NCBI RefSeq assembly: GCF_039555535.1
Contig: NZ_CP154630.1
Coordinates: 2,245,001-2,309,000 of the forward strand
Direction of reading: 5' to 3'
Source of the DNA: Stenotrophomonas maltophilia
Lineage (GTDB): Bacteria; Pseudomonadota; Gammaproteobacteria; Xanthomonadales; Xanthomonadaceae
Length of the DNA stretch: 64,000 bases
The notes under the pieces were generated by a model. That model saw nothing but the letters and a program-made list of their open reading frames with translations, made no database searches and was not told where the DNA came from. Within the stretch, counting starts at the first letter, position 1, and every line of letters starts with the position of its first letter. Both the position numbers and the translations under genes were made by a program. Below are positions 34,526-41,721 of this stretch, in pieces.

Positions 34526-35851
34526 CTAGAGCATGTACGGAATCTTGAACGCCAAGGTGAAGTCCGGCGCATCCGGGGTCAGCCCGATGCCCAGCAGGGT
34601 GACCAGCGTGGTGTGCTGGTTCAGCGCGTAGGTCACGCCCAGATTCAGTGACGCCGCGTTGGCGTCGCTGCCGATCACCTTCGTCCACTTGCCGCCCTGG
34701 AAGCGGGTCGAGGCACGGGCGCTGATGCGGTCGCTGAAGGACAGGCTGAGGCTGGTGCGTTCATTGAACGCAAAGGCAACTCCGGCACCGAAGTACACCG
34801 AGCCGCCCAGCTTCACATCACCCGGGTTCACGGTATCCGGATTGCTGTCGATATCGTTGAACCCGCGCGGGATGGAGTGCACGTAGCCGATGTTGGCGAA
34901 CAGGATCGCCGGATCAGCGGTCTTGACCATCGAGAGGCCCAGGTTGGCCTGCCATACGCCGTTGCCCGTGGGCTGTTCGCGCGGCACGGCGAAGCGGATG
35001 TAGTCGTCGTCATCACGCTCGATCACCTTCCAGTCCAGGCCGTAGGGCGCGCGACCGGTGGGCGCGGTCACGCCTGCCGTCAGTACCGTCTCGGGCCGCC
35101 AGCCACGTTCCCCGAACAGCCGGTAGTTGGCGCTCAGGCCGATATCGCCCAGGCCGTTGCCATTGGTCTCTTCCTGTGCAATGGCAGCAGCTGCGCCGCC
35201 CGCCCCACCTTTCTGGTAAACCGTGCGCCGTGCGAGGTAGGGCACGTCCAGGTTGAGGGTGAGGTTCGGGCTGACGCCCCAGCGCGCAGCCAGGTTGTAG
35301 GTGAGGGAATCGGACTCCACGTTCTCGATGGCGATATTGCCGAGGAAGATCGCGTCCAGTGCGAGGAAGCCGTTGAGGGTGAGCTGCTTGCGGTCGTAGC
35401 GGGCGTAGCTGAGGCTGTTTTCGACGGTGAAGCGGCGGGAAAACAGGGCCGATTGCTGCTGCTTCACATCATCCACGCTGCGTCGCGACTCCTGCTTCGC
35501 CTGCTGCGCCTCGGCCGCCGTGCTGGCGTAGCCTTCGCTGCGTGGTGGAACGGCTGCACCTGCACCGGCCTGTAGTGCCGTGCCGCGCTCTACTGCCGTT
35601 GCCGGAGCATTTGCGACTGCCGGATCCATTGGTCCAACCCGGCCACTCAATCGCGCCTGCATGGCCTGCACCTGCATGTCCAGTTCGCGCAATCGTCGAA
35701 CCTCCTGGGCGTAGTTGCTTTTGAGCTGCTCCAGCTGGTTGGCCAAGGCCTGTACATCCGCATTGTCGTCGGCCGCCGCCGGAGGTGCGGCGAGGGCGGT
35801 GCCCGCCAGCGCCGCCAGCGCCACCGGGGTGATCCTCAGTAGGGTGTGCAT
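34526..35851 (-). CDS. fapF: FapF-like outer-membrane amyloid exporter
   Basis: 441 aa. Signal peptide (about 1-22), a coiled-coil segment (about 32-70, ALANQLEQLKSNYAQEVRRLRELDMQVQAMQA), a linker, and from about 135 a C-terminal beta-barrel (VENSLSYARYDRKQLTLNGFLALDAIFL ... DFTLAFKIPYML). This coiled-coil plus barrel layout is that of FapF, the trimeric pore through which Pseudomonas exports functional amyloid subunits. It is the last gene of a six-gene operon in fapABCDEF order; the assignment rests on architecture and position more than on sequence identity. Confidence 0.82.
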   Translation of the reverse strand: MHTLLRITPVALAALAGTALAAPPAAADDNADVQALANQLEQLKSNYAQEVRRLRELDMQVQAMQARLSGRVGPMDPAVANAPATAVERGTALQAGAGAAVPPRSEGYASTAAEAQQAKQESRRSVDDVKQQQSALFSRRFTVENSLSYARYDRKQLTLNGFLALDAIFLGNIAIENVESDSLTYNLAARWGVSPNLTLNLDVPYLARRTVYQKGGAGGAAAAIAQEETNGNGLGDIGLSANYRLFGERGWRPETVLTAGVTAPTGRAPYGLDWKVIERDDDDYIRFAVPREQPTGNGVWQANLGLSMVKTADPAILFANIGYVHSIPRGFNDIDSNPDTVNPGDVKLGGSVYFGAGVAFAFNERTSLSLSFSDRISARASTRFQGGKWTKVIGSDANAASLNLGVTYALNQHTTLVTLLGIGLTPDAPDFTLAFKIPYML

Positions 35852-35897
35852 GTTCGTGTCCTGCGTTGTGGAACGCGTCCCCCAATGCCGCGCCGTG

Positions 35898-36647
35898 TTA
35901 CTGGCCCGGCCCCATGCCGCGGTTCAGCGCGATTGCCTGGGCCACGTTCTGGCTCAACGGCAGGTTGCCGCCCGCGGTGTTCCTCACCAGTTCCAGCCGC
36001 AGCTGGTTGCTGGCTGCCTGGCCGTCACCGGCCAGGGCGATGCCCTGGCCGACGCTGCCATTGCGTATCCATTGCTGCACCAGCCCCTGGCCGTCCACCT
36101 GCAGCATCAGGCGTGCCTGGTTGCCGTCCAGCACGGCACTGGCACGGATGCCGGCCTGCTGTGCGCTGGCCGCATGAGCGCCGTCGGATGTCGCCACGGG
36201 CACGGCACCGTCACGCACCACCAGCGTGGTGGCGTTGCGTGCGACGTTGCCATCGCCGGCCACCTGCACGCTCTGCACCAGCCCACTGGCGTTGGCCAGG
36301 CCGCTGCTGTCGATGCTGCGGCCGTGCGTGTCCGGTAACGGGGCGTCGGCGGCGGTCACATGCACGCTGGGCTGGAAGCTCAGCTTCGGGGGGCCGCCGC
36401 CGCGGAAGTCCATGCCCAGCGTCAGCGCGCCCTGCAGCGCGGCGCCGTTGCCGGCCTGCCATTGCGAGACCATGGTTACCCCGAACCAGGCCACGGTGTT
36501 TCCACCCACGGTGTAGCGGCCACGCATCAGGTTCAGTTCGGGATCCGGAATCTCTTTCAGGCCGCGTCCTGGCGCGCCCTCGGCTGCAAGCCGGGGCAGG
36601 GCAGGGCTTGCCAGCAGCAGGACCATCAACAAGGGGCGGCGGAACAT
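35898..36647 (-). CDS. fapE: FapE-like secreted accessory protein
   Basis: 249 aa. Signal peptide MFRRPLLMVLLLASPALPRLA; then EIPDPELNLMRGRYTVGGNTVAWFGVTM, a motif typical of FapE and of related amyloid-operon proteins, then Asn/Ala/Gly-rich text (NASGLVQSVQVAGDGNVARNATTL; GQGIALAGDGQAASNQLRLEL). FapE is exported with the fibrils in Pseudomonas and is found as a minor fibril component. A perfect AGGAGG sits eight bases before the ATG, and 13 bases separate it from the protease gene. Confidence 0.78.
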   Translation of the reverse strand: MFRRPLLMVLLLASPALPRLAAEGAPGRGLKEIPDPELNLMRGRYTVGGNTVAWFGVTMVSQWQAGNGAALQGALTLGMDFRGGGPPKLSFQPSVHVTAADAPLPDTHGRSIDSSGLANASGLVQSVQVAGDGNVARNATTLVVRDGAVPVATSDGAHAASAQQAGIRASAVLDGNQARLMLQVDGQGLVQQWIRNGSVGQGIALAGDGQAASNQLRLELVRNTAGGNLPLSQNVAQAIALNRGMGPGQ

Positions 36648-36660
36648 GGCGAGGCCTCCT

Positions 36661-37365
36661 TCAGAACAGGTCGGCATGGCTGAAGCCGAAGTCGACCAGC
36701 TCGGCATCGGTGATCGGCCCCTGTCGCGCGAAGAGCGCGCGGGCACTGGGCCGTTCGTTGGGTTGCAGCAATACCGTGTTGCGATCGAAATCACTGCCGA
36801 TCACCACGAACACGGCACGTGAGGGCCAGGCGGCCAGAAACTCCGGCAGGGCCAGGCTGCGGTTGCCGAGGATCGGGTCTGCCACTTCCACGATGCCCTC
36901 ACGGACCTGCTTGAGCACCACGAAATGGCGGAAGCCGCGCACGTCCATCAGTACCAGGCCGGGAACGCGCAGTGTGCGCAGGCGTTGTTCGTCGATGCGG
37001 TAGCCGCGCCCACGCATGCCCAGTGACTCCACGTAGCGCTTGATGTCGAGCAGCGAAAAGCCGCGTTCGGCGACCAGCGCCGGATCGGATACCCCCATCA
37101 TCCCTTCGATGACCGTCGCCTCGTCGGTGTCCAGGTGGTAGGCGTGGCGCAGGATGGTCGCCAGCGCCGCAGCCCCGCAGCTGTAGTCGGTGTGCTGGCG
37201 TACCACGTTGCGGTAGCGCCGCTCCTGCATGCTCTCCACCGTCTGCTGCAGCAGCGCGCCATTGGGCAGCACGCCACTGAAGCGCACGTCGCCCGCCCAC
37301 GCAGATGCAGTGGCCAGCAGCAACAGGCACGAGAGCAGGCGCATCGAAAGACGGCAACGGATCAT
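36661..37365 (-). CDS. fapD: FapD-like C39-family cysteine protease
   Basis: 234 aa with signal peptide (about 1-24, MRLLSCLLLLATASAWAGD). The C39 peptidase domain shows the active-site Cys63 in QHTDYSCGAAALATILRH, His147 in DVRGFRHFVVL and Asp163 in VEVADPILGN, a complete Cys-His-Asp triad. FapD in Pseudomonas is needed to process or export the amyloid components through FapF. The ATG at 37365 (with GGAGA upstream) is chosen over an in-frame start 75 bases earlier. Confidence 0.85.
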   Translation of the reverse strand: MIRCRLSMRLLSCLLLLATASAWAGDVRFSGVLPNGALLQQTVESMQERRYRNVVRQHTDYSCGAAALATILRHAYHLDTDEATVIEGMMGVSDPALVAERGFSLLDIKRYVESLGMRGRGYRIDEQRLRTLRVPGLVLMDVRGFRHFVVLKQVREGIVEVADPILGNRSLALPEFLAAWPSRAVFVVIGSDFDRNTVLLQPNERPSARALFARQGPITDAELVDFGFSHADLF

Positions 37366-37464
37366 CACGGTCTCCGGCGGCAGGGGGGAGCCCCTGTCCC
37401 AAGGGGGAGGAGGAACAGGGGCTCCCGGGAACCCGGCCATTGGCGGACGGCCGGGGTGTTGCGC

Positions 37465-38781
37465 TTACTCGCCGCTGCCGCCACCACCGCCGGTGCTGGG
37501 CTGGGCGACTGCCAAGGCAAGGCTGTTGGCCTGCAGGTTGCCGGTGCTGGACGCCACGTTCACGCCGATGTTGCCGGAGGCGCCGGAGAAGGCGCTGCCC
37601 GACAATGCCGAAGTGTTGGTGGCGTTGACGTTCACCCAGCGCGTGGTGCTGACCGTGCCGCTGAGGCTGGCATACAGGTCGGCCACGCCCAGTTCGACGA
37701 ACTGGCTGGTGCCACTCTCACGCGTATCGAAGCCCAGGCCGCCCACCCCCGGCCGGTTGGGGTTCATCGTGGCGTTCTGGATCTGGTTGTCCAGGTCGAT
37801 GTGGCCGGTGCTGTTGCCACTCGGGTGCGGCAGTTCGCCATTCCAGGTGTCCAGATAGTAGTTCGCCATCTGGTAGGCGTTGCCGGTGCCGCGGTAGGTG
37901 CCCGCGCCATAGGCCAGGGTCAGGCCGCTGACACCGCCACGCATGCCGACCTGCACGGTATCCGTGTAGGACTGCACGAAGCCGGCGTTGCTGACCGTGT
38001 TGCCGGTGGAGACCTGGTTCGAACTGATGCTCGACTGCGCCACCGCCGTGGTTGCTACCGAGGCCGCGAGCGCGTTCTTCTGCTCGTTGTTGTTGCCCGA
38101 AGCGATGTTCACGCCGATATTGCCGGACGCGCCGCCGAAGGCATTGCCGCCCAGGCCTGCGGCGTTGGTGACGCCGGAGTTCATGGTGGCGTTGCCGAAG
38201 CCAGCCTGGTTGACGAACACCTCGGCGTCGGCCATGCCGAAGCTGAAGGATGCATCGGCAGCGGACAGCGACGCGGCGTTGTCCTGCGCGTTGTTGTCGC
38301 CCGATACCACGTTGAAGCCGAGATTGCCCGATGCACCGGCACCGACGCTGTCACCGATGGAGGCGCTGTTGGTGACCAGGCTGTTGCTGGTGGCGTTGTT
38401 GCTGATCGACTGGCGATTGTCGATCACGGCGATGGCGGCCGAGTCGAGGTCGATGTCACCGGTGATGTTCGGGTCGCCGGAGAAGTTGATGTCGGTACTC
38501 AACCGCAGGTCCTTCTCCAGGTTCACGTCGACGCCGTGGTTGTTCTTTTCCTTGCGTTCGTCGGCCTGGATGTTGCTGTGCTTCTGCACATTGACGTTGA
38601 CGGTGCGGTTGCGCACATCGTTGTCGGTGTGGTTGTGCGTGTCGTTGCGGGTTTCGCTGACGGTATGGTTGTGGTTGATGTTCGCGTTGGCGTTCTGGTT
38701 GTCCCAGCCATTGGCCGCGGCGGCGGTCGAGGCAGTGGCAATCGCCATGGCGAGCATGGTCTGTTTGACGGTCGCTTTCAT
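37465..38781 (-). CDS. fapC: FapC-like major amyloid subunit
   Basis: 438 aa. After a signal peptide (about 1-23) comes an Asn/His-rich region (about 28-72), then three imperfect repeats, GASGNLGFNVVSGDNNAQDN (149-168), GASGNIGVNIASGNNNEQKN (217-236) and GASGNIGVNVASSTGNLQAN (400-419), separated by linkers of unequal length (about 48 and 163 residues). This repeat-linker design is that of FapC, whose repeats form the fibril core. The protein contains no Cys, so the C-terminal CxxC of Pseudomonas FapC is missing; it ends in a Gly-rich tail. Confidence 0.85.
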   Translation of the reverse strand: MKATVKQTMLAMAIATASTAAAANGWDNQNANANINHNHTVSETRNDTHNHTDNDVRNRTVNVNVQKHSNIQADERKEKNNHGVDVNLEKDLRLSTDINFSGDPNITGDIDLDSAAIAVIDNRQSISNNATSNSLVTNSASIGDSVGAGASGNLGFNVVSGDNNAQDNAASLSAADASFSFGMADAEVFVNQAGFGNATMNSGVTNAAGLGGNAFGGASGNIGVNIASGNNNEQKNALAASVATTAVAQSSISSNQVSTGNTVSNAGFVQSYTDTVQVGMRGGVSGLTLAYGAGTYRGTGNAYQMANYYLDTWNGELPHPSGNSTGHIDLDNQIQNATMNPNRPGVGGLGFDTRESGTSQFVELGVADLYASLSGTVSTTRWVNVNATNTSALSGSAFSGASGNIGVNVASSTGNLQANSLALAVAQPSTGGGGGSGE

Positions 38782-38824
38782 GGTGCCCTCTCTCTCATCA
38801 GGTGGTGCATCGGTTGGGTGGTTG

Positions 38825-39442
38825 TCACGGGCGGTCCTGCACGACCAGGCCCAGTACGTTGGCCGTGTCGTTGCCGCTGCCCGCTATCTGATTGAGTTGC
38901 AGGACCCCGTCGAATCCCCGCAGCGCGGTGCTGGCCACACCAACGCTACGGGTGCCCGTCGCAACGCCGCGACCGGCGTCGTCCCGCCCCCCTGCCAACG
39001 CGGAACCTTCGGCGGCCAAGGCCAAGTCGTCGGTTTCGCGTATGCCCTGTCGGGCCAGCGTCGCGCTGACGACGTTGAGCGTCGTGTTGGCGATGCCACT
39101 GGCCTGGTTGATGGATGCGATGCCGCTGGCACCCGCAAGTGCATCGCCGTCGATACCGGCGCGTGCGTGCAATGGCGCCGACAGCACCCGGTTGCCAGGC
39201 AGCAGTTGCTGGGCGCTGATCGCCACATCGGCGCGCTCGCCGGTGGCGATGCCGCGCAGGTTGGCCTGCTGGTTGAGGTCACCGGCGGCCTGGTTCACCG
39301 CGATCGCGCCATTGGCATCGGCCAATGCGCGGCCGTCGATACGGGCTACATCCAGATAGGCAAGCATGCCGCTGTACTCGTCGCAGTGCGCAAGCGACGG
39401 CGCCATCGCCAGCATCAGCAGCGGCAGGCAAGGGCGTTTCAC
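38825..39442 (-). CDS. fapB: FapB-like amyloid nucleator
   Basis: 205 aa. Signal peptide to about residue 19; then three imperfect repeats near 39-65 (ALADANGAIAVNQAAGDLNQ), 101-127 (ALAGASGIASINQASGIANT) and 173-199 (ALRGFDGVLQLNQIAGSGND). FapB in Pseudomonas likewise has three repeats related to FapC and nucleates fibres. The start is a GTG at 39442 that overlaps the upstream stop (GTGA). No CxxC at the C-terminus. Confidence 0.78.
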   Translation of the reverse strand: MKRPCLPLLMLAMAPSLAHCDEYSGMLAYLDVARIDGRALADANGAIAVNQAAGDLNQQANLRGIATGERADVAISAQQLLPGNRVLSAPLHARAGIDGDALAGASGIASINQASGIANTTLNVVSATLARQGIRETDDLALAAEGSALAGGRDDAGRGVATGTRSVGVASTALRGFDGVLQLNQIAGSGNDTANVLGLVVQDRP

Positions 39443-39969
39443 TTGCCACCTGCCGGGGCCGGACCCTGCAGCGGGAACTGGGCGAGGGCGCCGCGCACCG
39501 TATCGCCAATGCCGCGTGTGCTGTTGCCCACCGCGCCCAGCGGACCGCTCATGGCGCCGCCGAGGCTGCTGCCGGCCATGCCGTCGCTGCTGCGGCCGAG
39601 CGTGCCACCAAGGGCCTGCTGCGTGACGCGCTCGACCGTCGTCCCCCCCGGCGCCGAAGCCGGAGCGGCGTGCCCTGCACCCATGCCTGCATAGTCCTCG
39701 TCGCTCAGCTCGTCCATTGCGCCGCTACCGGCGCGGGTGCCAAGCGCGGCGGCGATCTCGCGCTGAGGCTTTGGATCGGCAATCAGCGCCATGCCCGGTG
39801 GCGCCATCCGGTAGGCGGGGCGCGCCGACACATCGCGCAACAGGACGATTTCGCCCGGTTGTGCCTTCACCGCTTGGCGCGCGCCGGAACCGGCTGCGTT
39901 CATGGCGACCGACAACAGGGCCAGCGCCAGGGGTGCCGCCAGGTCACGAATGAGGGTGGTGCCGTCCAT
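39439..39969 (-). CDS. fapA: FapA-like first protein of the amyloid operon
   Basis: 176 aa with a hydrophobic N-terminus (about 9-26, LAAPLALALLSVAMNAAGSG), a central QPGEIVLLRDVSARPAYRMAPPGMALIADPKP segment and a C-terminus of low complexity (Gly/Ser/Ala). In Pseudomonas the first fap gene encodes a periplasmic chaperone that steers FapB/FapC; here the assignment is by position and by N-terminal signal, with no sequence motif of my own certainty. A GGAAGA ribosome site precedes the ATG and a sigma-54 promoter lies 34-49 bases upstream. Confidence 0.6.
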   Translation of the reverse strand: MDGTTLIRDLAAPLALALLSVAMNAAGSGARQAVKAQPGEIVLLRDVSARPAYRMAPPGMALIADPKPQREIAAALGTRAGSGAMDELSDEDYAGMGAGHAAPASAPGGTTVERVTQQALGGTLGRSSDGMAGSSLGGAMSGPLGAVGNSTRGIGDTVRGALAQFPLQGPAPAGGK

Positions 39970-40365
39970 GCCGATCTTCCGCGGTGGGTGCGGCGGAACT
40001 ACGCATCAACCGTGCCAAGTGCCGGAGGCCCGTGCCGCAACCGGCGGCCGGGGTGCGGCGCGGCCGGGTGGCGCCAGGGCGTTACAACGGCGTCGGGAAA
40101 TTGTGGGGATTGCGCAGCCCGCAGCTGCCACAGGGCAAGGCGGATGCCCGACTGTCGCATTGTTGTTACAGGTGACATCGCCGACTGCAACGGTGCCGCT
40201 TCAGCCGGTGATTTCTTGACGCGCTGCTCATTGCGCTGCCGTTTAGCGCAGCGCTAGCATCCGCCCATCAAAGGCCGCCCCGGTGGCCGAAGAAGTCCCG
40301 GCGGGGGGCGGCACGCCGGTGATTGCCTGACAGTCCGCCGACGGTGTCCGGATGCTGGGGGAAGC
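39970..40365. other. Divergent control region of fap operon and its activator
   Basis: About 400 bases with no gene. It holds the sigma-54 promoter at 40003-40018. A short self-complementary stretch lies near 40222-40256 (gcgctgctcattgcgctgcc then gtttagcgcagcgc). Upstream activator sites for the adjacent regulator would be expected at about 40090-40200 but I cannot name one with confidence. Confidence 0.4.
40003..40018 (-). promoter_or_regulatory. Sigma-54 (-24/-12) promoter of the fap operon
   Basis: On the minus strand, TTGGCACG (40018-40011), GTTG and ATGC (40006-40003) match the consensus YTGGCACG-N4-TTGC with a perfect -24 element and one mismatch at -12, keeping the essential GG and GC. 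Transcription would start near 39991, about 22 bases before the fapA ATG. The divergent gene encodes a sigma-54 activator, strengthening the call. Confidence 0.75.
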
Positions 40366-41721
40366 ATGGCGGCGGTCCCGGAGGCTTCAACATCGCGCTG
40401 CGTACTCTGGTTCGGCGAACCGCTGGCAGGCGAGCGCAGCGCGCTGGCGGCCGCAGGCTGGTGTGTACGCAGCATCCATCCCGATCCCGGCATGGCCATT
40501 GGCCTGCGTGGACGCGATCGACTGCTCGCCGTCGTCGATCTACGCCATATGGACGGGCCGGCGCTTCAGCTGCTGATGCCGTGGATCGAACAGCACCAGC
40601 ATCTGCCCTGGCTGGCAGTGCTGCCGCCCGGCGCAGGGGCCACGCCAACGGCATGGCTGCCGCTGCTGCAGTTCTGCCTGGCGCGCTTCACGCTCCCGTT
40701 CGGCCTGCAGGACCTGGTCAGTGCGATGCGCCAGCAGTTCGATGCGGATGAACCCTCTGCTGATGGCGCGTGCAACGGGCAGGGGCCGCGCGCATTGATC
40801 GGCGAGAGCCCCGCACTGCATGCCGTGCGCACGGTGCTGCACAAGTTCGCTCCGGTGGAACTGCCGGTGCTGGTCACCGGTGAAACCGGCACCGGCAAGG
40901 AGTTGGCCGCGCACGCGCTGCATGCGTTGTCCGGGCGCGCGGGCAGGCCATTCATCGCCGTCAATTGCGGTGCGATCCCGGCCAACCTCGTGCAGTCGGA
41001 GTTGTTCGGGCATGAGCGCGGCTCGTTCACCGGTGCCGACAAGCGCCAGATCGGCGTGTTTGAAACGGCCCAGGGCGGCACCGTATTCCTCGATGAGGTG
41101 GGCGACCTGCCGGCGGAGGCCCAGACCAGCCTGCTGCGGGTGCTTCAGGAAGGCACCTTCGAGCGGGTCGGCAGCAGCCAGCCGTTGCGCGCCGACGTGC
41201 GGGTGCTTGCCGCAACCCACGTCGAGCTGGAGCACGCCGTGGCCCATGGCCGTTTCCGCAGTGATCTCTACTACCGCCTCAACGTGCTGCGGCTGCTGAT
41301 GCCGCCGCTGCGCGAACGTGGTGCCGATGTGCAGCTGCTGGCCGAGCACTTCCTGCGCTGCTTCCGGTTGCGTCACACGGTTCGCGCACGCGGCTTTTCG
41401 GCGGCGGCGATCCAGGCGATGCGCCGCTTCGACTGGCCGGGCAATGTCCGCGAACTGCTCAACCGGGTGCAGCGCGCTGCGATCATGGCCGAAGGGGAAC
41501 TGATCAGCGAGCGGGACCTGGAACTGGGCGCACCGGTGCCGGCCCCACCCGGCGCGATGCTGCACGATGCGCGTGGACAGGCCGAACGTGATGTGCTGCT
41601 TCAGACCCTGCGCCAGACCGGCTACAACGTCTCCGAATGTGCGCGCCAGATGCAGATTTCGCGGGTGACGGTGTACCGGCTGTGCCGCAAGCACCGGCTG
41701 GAGCTGCCCGCGCAGCGCTGA
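40366..41721 (+). CDS. Sigma-54-dependent activator (VpsR/FleQ-like)
   Basis: 451 aa. The N-terminal 130 residues fold like a receiver but lack a clear phospho-acceptor Asp pocket, as in VpsR/FleQ proteins that bind cyclic-di-GMP or act without phosphorylation. The AAA+ domain (about 143-380) has Walker A GETGTGKE (172-179), the sigma-54 contact loop as GSFTGA (219-224; the usual form is GAFTGA), and Walker B GTVFLDEVGDL. A Fis-type helix-turn-helix ends the protein (NVSECARQMQISRVTVYRLCRKH). Divergence from the fap operon and the sigma-54 promoter there make it the likely activator of amyloid expression. Confidence 0.93.
   Translation: MAAVPEASTSRCVLWFGEPLAGERSALAAAGWCVRSIHPDPGMAIGLRGRDRLLAVVDLRHMDGPALQLLMPWIEQHQHLPWLAVLPPGAGATPTAWLPLLQFCLARFTLPFGLQDLVSAMRQQFDADEPSADGACNGQGPRALIGESPALHAVRTVLHKFAPVELPVLVTGETGTGKELAAHALHALSGRAGRPFIAVNCGAIPANLVQSELFGHERGSFTGADKRQIGVFETAQGGTVFLDEVGDLPAEAQTSLLRVLQEGTFERVGSSQPLRADVRVLAATHVELEHAVAHGRFRSDLYYRLNVLRLLMPPLRERGADVQLLAEHFLRCFRLRHTVRARGFSAAAIQAMRRFDWPGNVRELLNRVQRAAIMAEGELISERDLELGAPVPAPPGAMLHDARGQAERDVLLQTLRQTGYNVSECARQMQISRVTVYRLCRKHRLELPAQR

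Follow-up and report, generated by a model that had tools for sequence, protein, structure and literature searches.

The stretch analysed here (the window) comprises 64,000 nucleotides of Stenotrophomonas maltophilia, positions 2,245,001 to 2,309,000 of contig NZ_CP154630.1. We are confident that it holds a module for functional amyloid, in the Fap form typical of the S. maltophilia group, made up of a fapABCDEF operon and a dedicated sigma-54 activator of the BrfA type. Both the presence of fap in S. maltophilia and RpoN/BrfA-type regulation of fap are already in print, and the window is a known system that a preliminary description, made from the sequence alone, had correctly recognised. To our knowledge, new within the literature searched are a predicted shared enhancer, the exact co-occurrence of activator and exporter, a moved and permuted module, and a divergent sensor domain. 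What emerges is a widespread amyloid matrix module with a single conserved activator and a well-defined DNA site that this activator is predicted to use. The features are as follows (E-values in brackets; every NCBIfam match is below its cut-off).

34526..35851, minus strand: fapF, coiled coil and outer-membrane barrel exporter (NCBIfam FapF 1.9e-110; residues 120-440 to PDB FapF structures 4.3e-79)
35898..36647, minus strand: fapE (NCBIfam FapE 4.7e-23)
36661..37365, minus strand: fapD, C39 peptidase (Pfam Peptidase_C39 1e-17; NCBIfam FapD 1.1e-76)
37386..37427 (limits approximate), minus strand: strong hairpin in the fapC-fapD gap, from the fold of a 100-base intergenic stretch
37465..38781, minus strand: fapC, main fibril subunit, 438 amino acids (NCBIfam FapC 1e-46; PDB FapC chains 9.4e-12)
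38825..39442, minus strand: fapB, nucleator-like subunit, 205 amino acids, GTG start (NCBIfam FapB 4.6e-29)
39439..39969, minus strand: fapA, chaperone-like, 176 amino acids (NCBIfam FapA 7.5e-10)
40017-40002, minus strand: -24/-12 sigma-54 promoter of fapA, TGGCACGGTTGATGCG (equivalent box in 80/80 related loci)
40080..40086, minus strand: predicted proximal half-site TGTAACG
40153..40170, minus strand: predicted distal activator site, a TGTAACA-N4-TGCGACA dyad
40366..41721, plus strand: likely BrfA orthologue, 451 amino acids, with a VpsR-like receiver fold, an AAA+ domain with GSFTGA loop and a Fis-type helix-turn-helix (HTH)

Genes of the Fap operon

Six open reading frames (ORFs) on the minus strand, from 34526 to 39969, form a complete set in the order fapABCDEF, as the preliminary description had proposed, and NCBIfam models name all six, with matches far better than chance would give; the end of fapA overlaps the start of fapB by 4 nt. 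The proposed search with Pfam families returned none for the FapA, FapB and FapC ORFs, while the NCBIfam models matched all three. The ORF at 37465-38781, on whose resemblance to FapC that description had staked its reading, matches the FapC profile, and a search of the PDB led from it to FapC chains. It contains three G-N-x-G-x-N...Q-x-N repeats and no Cys. Cys is missing from FapC in 81/81 Lysobacterales sequences, a difference from the FapC chains matched in the PDB, in which a CTVC motif stands close to the C terminus. An AlphaFold2 model of the window FapC (mean predicted local distance difference test score, pLDDT, of 46) was too poor for use. The predicted C39 protease with a full triad was borne out by the Peptidase_C39 match and by the Cys, His and Asp read from the sequence in DYSCGAAA, RHFVVL and VADP. 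The window thus resembles Pseudomonas Fap in gene order, the six families, FapC repeats, C39 peptidase and FapF exporter, but differs in its low similarity, under the NCBIfam cut-offs.

That Fap was known from Pseudomonas, as the preliminary description had it, is true but incomplete: in the available text of Dueholm et al. (2013; PMC3792158), S. maltophilia is among the fap carriers, along with other non-Pseudomonas genera, and a single fapABCDEF operon is reported for all taxa except seven genera.

The hairpin deserves separate mention. The 100-base stretch between fapC and fapD folds at -54.6 kcal/mol, a value without shuffle control, and since the hairpin sits between the two possible starts of fapD, position 37365 is more plausible than 37440. 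Across 81 folded sequences, the same gap ranges from -50 to -117 kcal/mol (again without shuffle control, and at high G+C). The hairpin is a candidate for setting the ratio of fapC to fapD. Ahead of its first repeat (window 38450-38710), the N-terminal part of FapC is enriched in Asn, His and Asp and may bind metal.

The adjacent activator is most likely a BrfA orthologue

Divergent from the operon lies the sigma-54 activator gene that had been pointed out in the preliminary description (40366-41721). Its product has the hallmarks of a bacterial enhancer-binding protein (bEBP): an AAA+ Sigma54_activat domain (Pfam, 5.2e-68) with AAA lid, a loop of the GAFTGA type reading GSFTGA, and an HTH (HTH_8, 6.1e-08). 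The VpsR-like receiver ascribed to it is recognisable by fold, yet the VpsR domain (PF20161) scored 22.0 bits, under the Pfam cut-off of 23.7. In other families, nine activators encoded at fap or FapD/F loci were tested and eight passed this cut-off, and the domain is annotated (precomputed) in the activators of some near relatives. Searched alone against the PDB, the N-terminal domain gave weak VpsR matches (0.0086 to 7y19, and 0.039). A Foldseek search with the model of the whole activator found NtrC1, NtrX, LuxO, FleQ and VpsR (7v2b) over approximately 380-470 columns, with template modelling (TM) scores near 0.5 and large root mean square deviations, which indicates that its domains are differently arranged.

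In P. fluorescens, a -24/-12 fapA promoter dependent on RpoN and an adjacent bEBP, BrfA, have been reported in the available text of Guo et al. (2022; PMC9207406), where brfA stands downstream of fapF on the opposite strand, as in the Pseudomonadaceae loci examined here. The dedicated sigma-54 switch suggested for the window is supported, but it is less novel than had been presented. We could find no study of fap regulation in Stenotrophomonas by title or abstract opening in the open-licence literature.

We reached the Pseudomonadaceae via OprF and FapF, the family label being inferred from an OprF match (260 bits, G222) and FapF scores. Among 79 genomes of the family of G222, 17 have a FapF over the cut-off and two a strong one below it. 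All but one of these 19 loci have an activator of the window type on the strand opposite fapF, no more than 1.5 kb downstream of it; four of the 18 proteins are 441 amino acids long, as BrfA of strain PF07 would be. With one of them (L180) as query against the whole window genome, the window activator came first, at 339 bits over L180 residues 93-440, and the next protein had 250. In a tree, in which some long branches were flagged, the Lysobacterales activators form one clade and those of Pseudomonadaceae another (100/100), and the three included among the seven other activators of the window genome fall outside (93/93). Activators are also present in 17 of 19 further stretches from other families (18 genomes; five of the stretches are loci with FapD- and FapF-like genes only), plus one in Aeromonas caviae. 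When the first 150 residues of a related activator were used as a protein query aimed at Pseudomonas, eight proteins were returned, of which the two with a name are both from Sulfuriflexus.

We consider the window activator most likely to be a BrfA orthologue, because it combines a one-way best match in a whole genome with synteny. Like PF07 BrfA, it adjoins fap with a -24/-12 promoter at fapA, and the activators linked to fap in Pseudomonadaceae have its domain layout as well as enhancer-like dyads similar to those of the window; unlike BrfA, the activator of the S. maltophilia group is upstream and divergent, and its input-domain motifs differ. In this comparison, the 18 Pseudomonadaceae activators encoded in the same place as PF07 BrfA stand in for it.

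Promoter and predicted enhancer

The near-consensus promoter of the preliminary description is confirmed: TGGCACGGTTGATGCG scores 10/12 against the -24/-12 consensus, and a box of at least 10/12 stands upstream of fapA in 80/80 related loci. From the usual spacing, we predict that transcription starts near 39991, in agreement with that description. In other families, a box of at least 10/12 was found in 8/14 loci. As a prediction, sigma-54 control of the window operon is well supported.

Upstream of the -24 box, a dyad of the TGTAACA type with a spacing of 4 occurs in 52 of 64 sequences (81 minus 17 of the S. maltophilia group) and in none of 10 shuffles. At the proximal place, 16 of the 19 S. 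maltophilia-group loci read TGTAACA. A looser pattern, TGTNNCA-N4-TGNNACA, set after seeing the Pseudomonadaceae sites, matches at 9/10 or better in 73/81 Lysobacterales regions (mean of 0.16 in 50 shuffles) and 19/19 Pseudomonadaceae regions (mean of 0.12 in 50 shuffles), and perfectly in 59/81 (shuffle mean 0) and 11/19 (shuffle mean 0.04), with related sequences included in the counts and only base composition preserved in the shuffles. When spacings from 0 to 11 were compared, a spacing of 4 gave the 59 Lysobacterales and 11 Pseudomonadaceae regions with a perfect site, and any other spacing at most 13 and 0.

Relative to the -24 box, 73/76 Lysobacterales sites lie between -150 and -168, with a half-site commonly found near -70 or -80; in Pseudomonadaceae, 13/35 sites lie between -159 and -169 and 9/35 between -80 and -82. 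The dyad clusters near -153 and -163 would be about one helical turn apart. We regard this dyad, common to Lysobacterales and Pseudomonadaceae, as likely to be the enhancer recognised by BrfA, a prediction drawn from sequence comparison. In the window genome, TGTAACA-N4-TGTTACA with up to two mismatches occurs in one place, the fap promoter, and the reversed control pattern in two; the match is telling by its location and not by its count.

A number of points weigh against this account of the operon and its control. All 6 of the 6 Fap genes score under the NCBIfam equivalog cut-offs (bits/cut-off: FapA 39/110, FapB 101/190, FapC 160/195, FapD 257/330, FapE 82/250, FapF 370/700). The best-match search for orthology ran in one direction, from L180 to the window genome. 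In Pseudomonadaceae, the best fapA box reaches at least 9/12 in 18/19 loci and at least 10/12 in 12/19. The window dyad has two mismatches to TGTAACA-N4-TGTTACA, and its proximal site is a half-site only. A dyad of 9/10 or better is missing from 8/81 Lysobacterales regions, occurs in 5/12 regions of other families, and falls outside the two offset clusters in 13/35 Pseudomonadaceae sites. To these are added the choice of the looser pattern, the related sequences and the simple shuffles mentioned above. As for the cut-offs, FapF exceeds its own in 0/61 Stenotrophomonas genomes vs 17/79 genomes taken as Pseudomonadaceae, so this cut-off appears to be tuned to Pseudomonas. Judged by sequence, Fap homology of the window genes stands, and strict NCBIfam equivalog status fails.

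In the mechanism that we consider most likely, the activator would bind the TGTNNCA-N4-TGNNACA dyads in the region of approximately 350 bases common to its own gene and fapA, and form an AAA+ ring whose GSFTGA loop and ATP hydrolysis would open the RpoN polymerase at 40002-40017. Production of FapB and FapC would follow, then their maturation with FapD, export via FapF and assembly as fibrils, with the hairpin after fapC probably favouring fapABC over fapDEF.

Input domain and cyclic-di-GMP

The preliminary description had suggested a tie to cyclic-di-GMP (c-di-GMP). Such a link is plausible given the orthology, but is weakened here because the Lysobacterales input domain departs from its Pseudomonadaceae version. 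The most direct possibility is that the input published for P. fluorescens applies, with the activator binding c-di-GMP itself and turning fap on when its level is high; this we believe slightly less than we doubt it. It is favoured by the homology and synteny with fap-linked Pseudomonadaceae activators, by the VpsR-like fold, and by the report that BrfA senses c-di-GMP (stated in the available text of PMC13101488 from a 2024 paper). Set against it is a pair of motifs, [DN][YFH][HYF][TR]xP and [LI]G[HR][AQ]xG, present in 17/18 Pseudomonadaceae and 10/17 other activators and in 0/77 from Lysobacterales. Conversely, Asp58 is found in 77/77 Lysobacterales activators, 3/17 others and 0/18 from Pseudomonadaceae. 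The lost motifs may be irrelevant to c-di-GMP binding, and the difference between the domains is no proof of lost sensing.

A second possibility, on which we are doubtful, is that the Lysobacterales domain answers another cue through Asp58 while the promoter logic stays the same. In the AlphaFold2 model of the window activator (mean pLDDT 83.9), residues 52-58 form part of the third strand, and Asp58, invariant in the 77 sequences, closes it. The end of the third strand is the place of the phosphoacceptor in receivers. Against a changed input of this kind, the first strand lacks a conserved acidic pair, as judged by eye from the alignment, and the fifth does not end in a conserved Lys, which makes classical phosphorylation doubtful. 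The differences in the input domain advise caution in extending the c-di-GMP switch of Pseudomonas to Stenotrophomonas.

Two other regulators are useful for comparison. VpsR of Vibrio cholerae resembles the window activator in its receiver-like domain, by the weak sequence match (7y19) and the fold match (7v2b) given above; in the available text of PMC5552954 it is described as RpoN-independent, whereas the window activator keeps the GSFTGA loop and faces a sigma-54 promoter. BerB of Burkholderia cenocepacia is likewise a bEBP that acts with RpoN, on a biofilm regulator gene, and binds c-di-GMP, but is described in the same text without an N-terminal input domain and with berA, not fap, as its target (PMC5552954).

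Distribution and relocation of the module

A scan of named genomes for FapD gave related loci, of which the best 80 of 92 (L031-L110) were used. The activator adjoins fap in 76/80, and the contigs of the other four break off within fapE-fapF or shortly beyond. It is upstream and divergent in the 19 loci of the S. maltophilia group (L031-L049), and downstream of fapF on the opposite strand in the remaining 57. Among 61 Stenotrophomonas genomes, FapF and the activator are found in the same 55 and neither is found in the other six; orthologues of the activator were recognised by a break in the E-values, which jump from 2e-139 for the last match accepted to 3e-80 for the one that follows. The activator is upstream in 22 of the 55, those with at least 90% identity, and downstream in 33.

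The divergent arrangement had been presented as part of the design of the system. The activator tree makes the window group sister to S. cyclobalanopsidis (L050; support 96/94), and L050 and other near relatives have the downstream layout, so the upstream divergent layout of the S. maltophilia group is derived. In S. cyclobalanopsidis, the module lies between alkaline phosphatase and NlpC/P60 genes. At approximately 1.4418 Mb of the window genome, the one genome in which this ancestral site was examined, both flanks can be aligned (91% and 87%), and between them 151 bases stand where S. cyclobalanopsidis has 7.4 kb. The window module is at approximately 2.28 Mb, 0.84 Mb from this empty site. 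In an alignment with S. cyclobalanopsidis, its DNA falls into two blocks that have swapped places; the match is 80% between the promoter and the stop of fapF, and 77% over the activator.

The layout of the window module, in order and in orientation, is exactly what results when a circle is opened at the junction of fapF and activator; tandem duplication and subsequent losses would produce it as well. We rejected an inversion of the activator alone, because the gene would stay downstream of fapF. Our reading is that the module left the alkaline phosphatase-NlpC/P60 site before the S. maltophilia group diversified, in its ancestor, and settled elsewhere in permuted order, which placed the activator beside the fapA promoter. 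This is a clean natural case in which the position of a regulator gene changed and its predicted target sites did not. Loss of the ancestral module from this group, with a different one acquired through horizontal transfer, is improbable. Transfer would account for the new place and order, and most neighbours of the window module are absent from three relatives that have the other layout, among which synteny of the new location was not seen; but both the sister position in the activator tree and the 80% and 77% matches to S. cyclobalanopsidis argue against it.

A broader synthesis may be put forward tentatively, and we think it unlikely to hold in full. One enhancer-promoter logic would extend across distant gammaproteobacterial families, the BrfA of Lysobacterales would sense something other than, or besides, c-di-GMP via its invariant Asp58, and the fap-brfA cassette would have moved as a circle, creating a shared, possibly autoregulated, divergent control region.

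Dyads away from fap

In the search of Stenotrophomonas, at least 57 of 61 genomes had a dyad match. Among the matches listed, 19 have one mismatch or none: 16 of these are found 6 kb or less from FapF, two lie elsewhere and one is on a contig without FapF; the six genomes lacking fap have 0 to 5 matches each among those listed, all with two mismatches.

An identical extra dyad, TGTAACAGGAATGCAACA, occurs away from fap in at least six relatives (G032, G006, G022, G040, G047, G060) and was not found in the window genome; in the three stretches read around it, no sigma-54 box lies within 400 bases. In G022 and G047 (stretches L208 and L209), a one-mismatch dyad, TGTAACACAGGTGTTACC, also lies away from fap. 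It is followed 333-335 bases on by a box-like sequence, TGGCTCGGTCGTTGCC, which scores 10/12, the same as the fap box, and lies within the following ORF. A second target of the activator in the two strains is conceivable. As a regulon beyond fap, the extra sites were rejected: five stretches were read in four relatives, of which three are devoid of a box within 400 bases, and we took the boxes of G022 and G047, at that distance and inside the next ORF, as chance.

A role for the activator in biofilm regulation at large, with fap no more than its neighbour, is most improbable: BerB, a bEBP with RpoN and c-di-GMP controlling an exopolysaccharide regulator in the available text of PMC5552954, offers a precedent, and the G022 and G047 sites could be such targets, but the activator co-occurs exactly with FapF, the two-mismatch search of the window genome matches the fap promoter alone, and the extra sites have their boxes inside an ORF or none nearby.

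Other observations

Five loci (L168-L172) contain FapD- and FapF-like gene pairs with no detectable FapB or FapC, and four of the five have an activator of the window kind nearby, the VpsR domain having been examined in L168 alone. Here another secreted matrix protein could possibly be using a Fap-like exporter. A 4.9 Mb Aeromonas caviae record filed as a plasmid (L173) is evidently a chromosome. Finally, a record titled Bacillus subtilis SK7B5 (L055) contains a Stenotrophomonas-like fap operon with its activator, and is probably a mislabelled or contaminated assembly.

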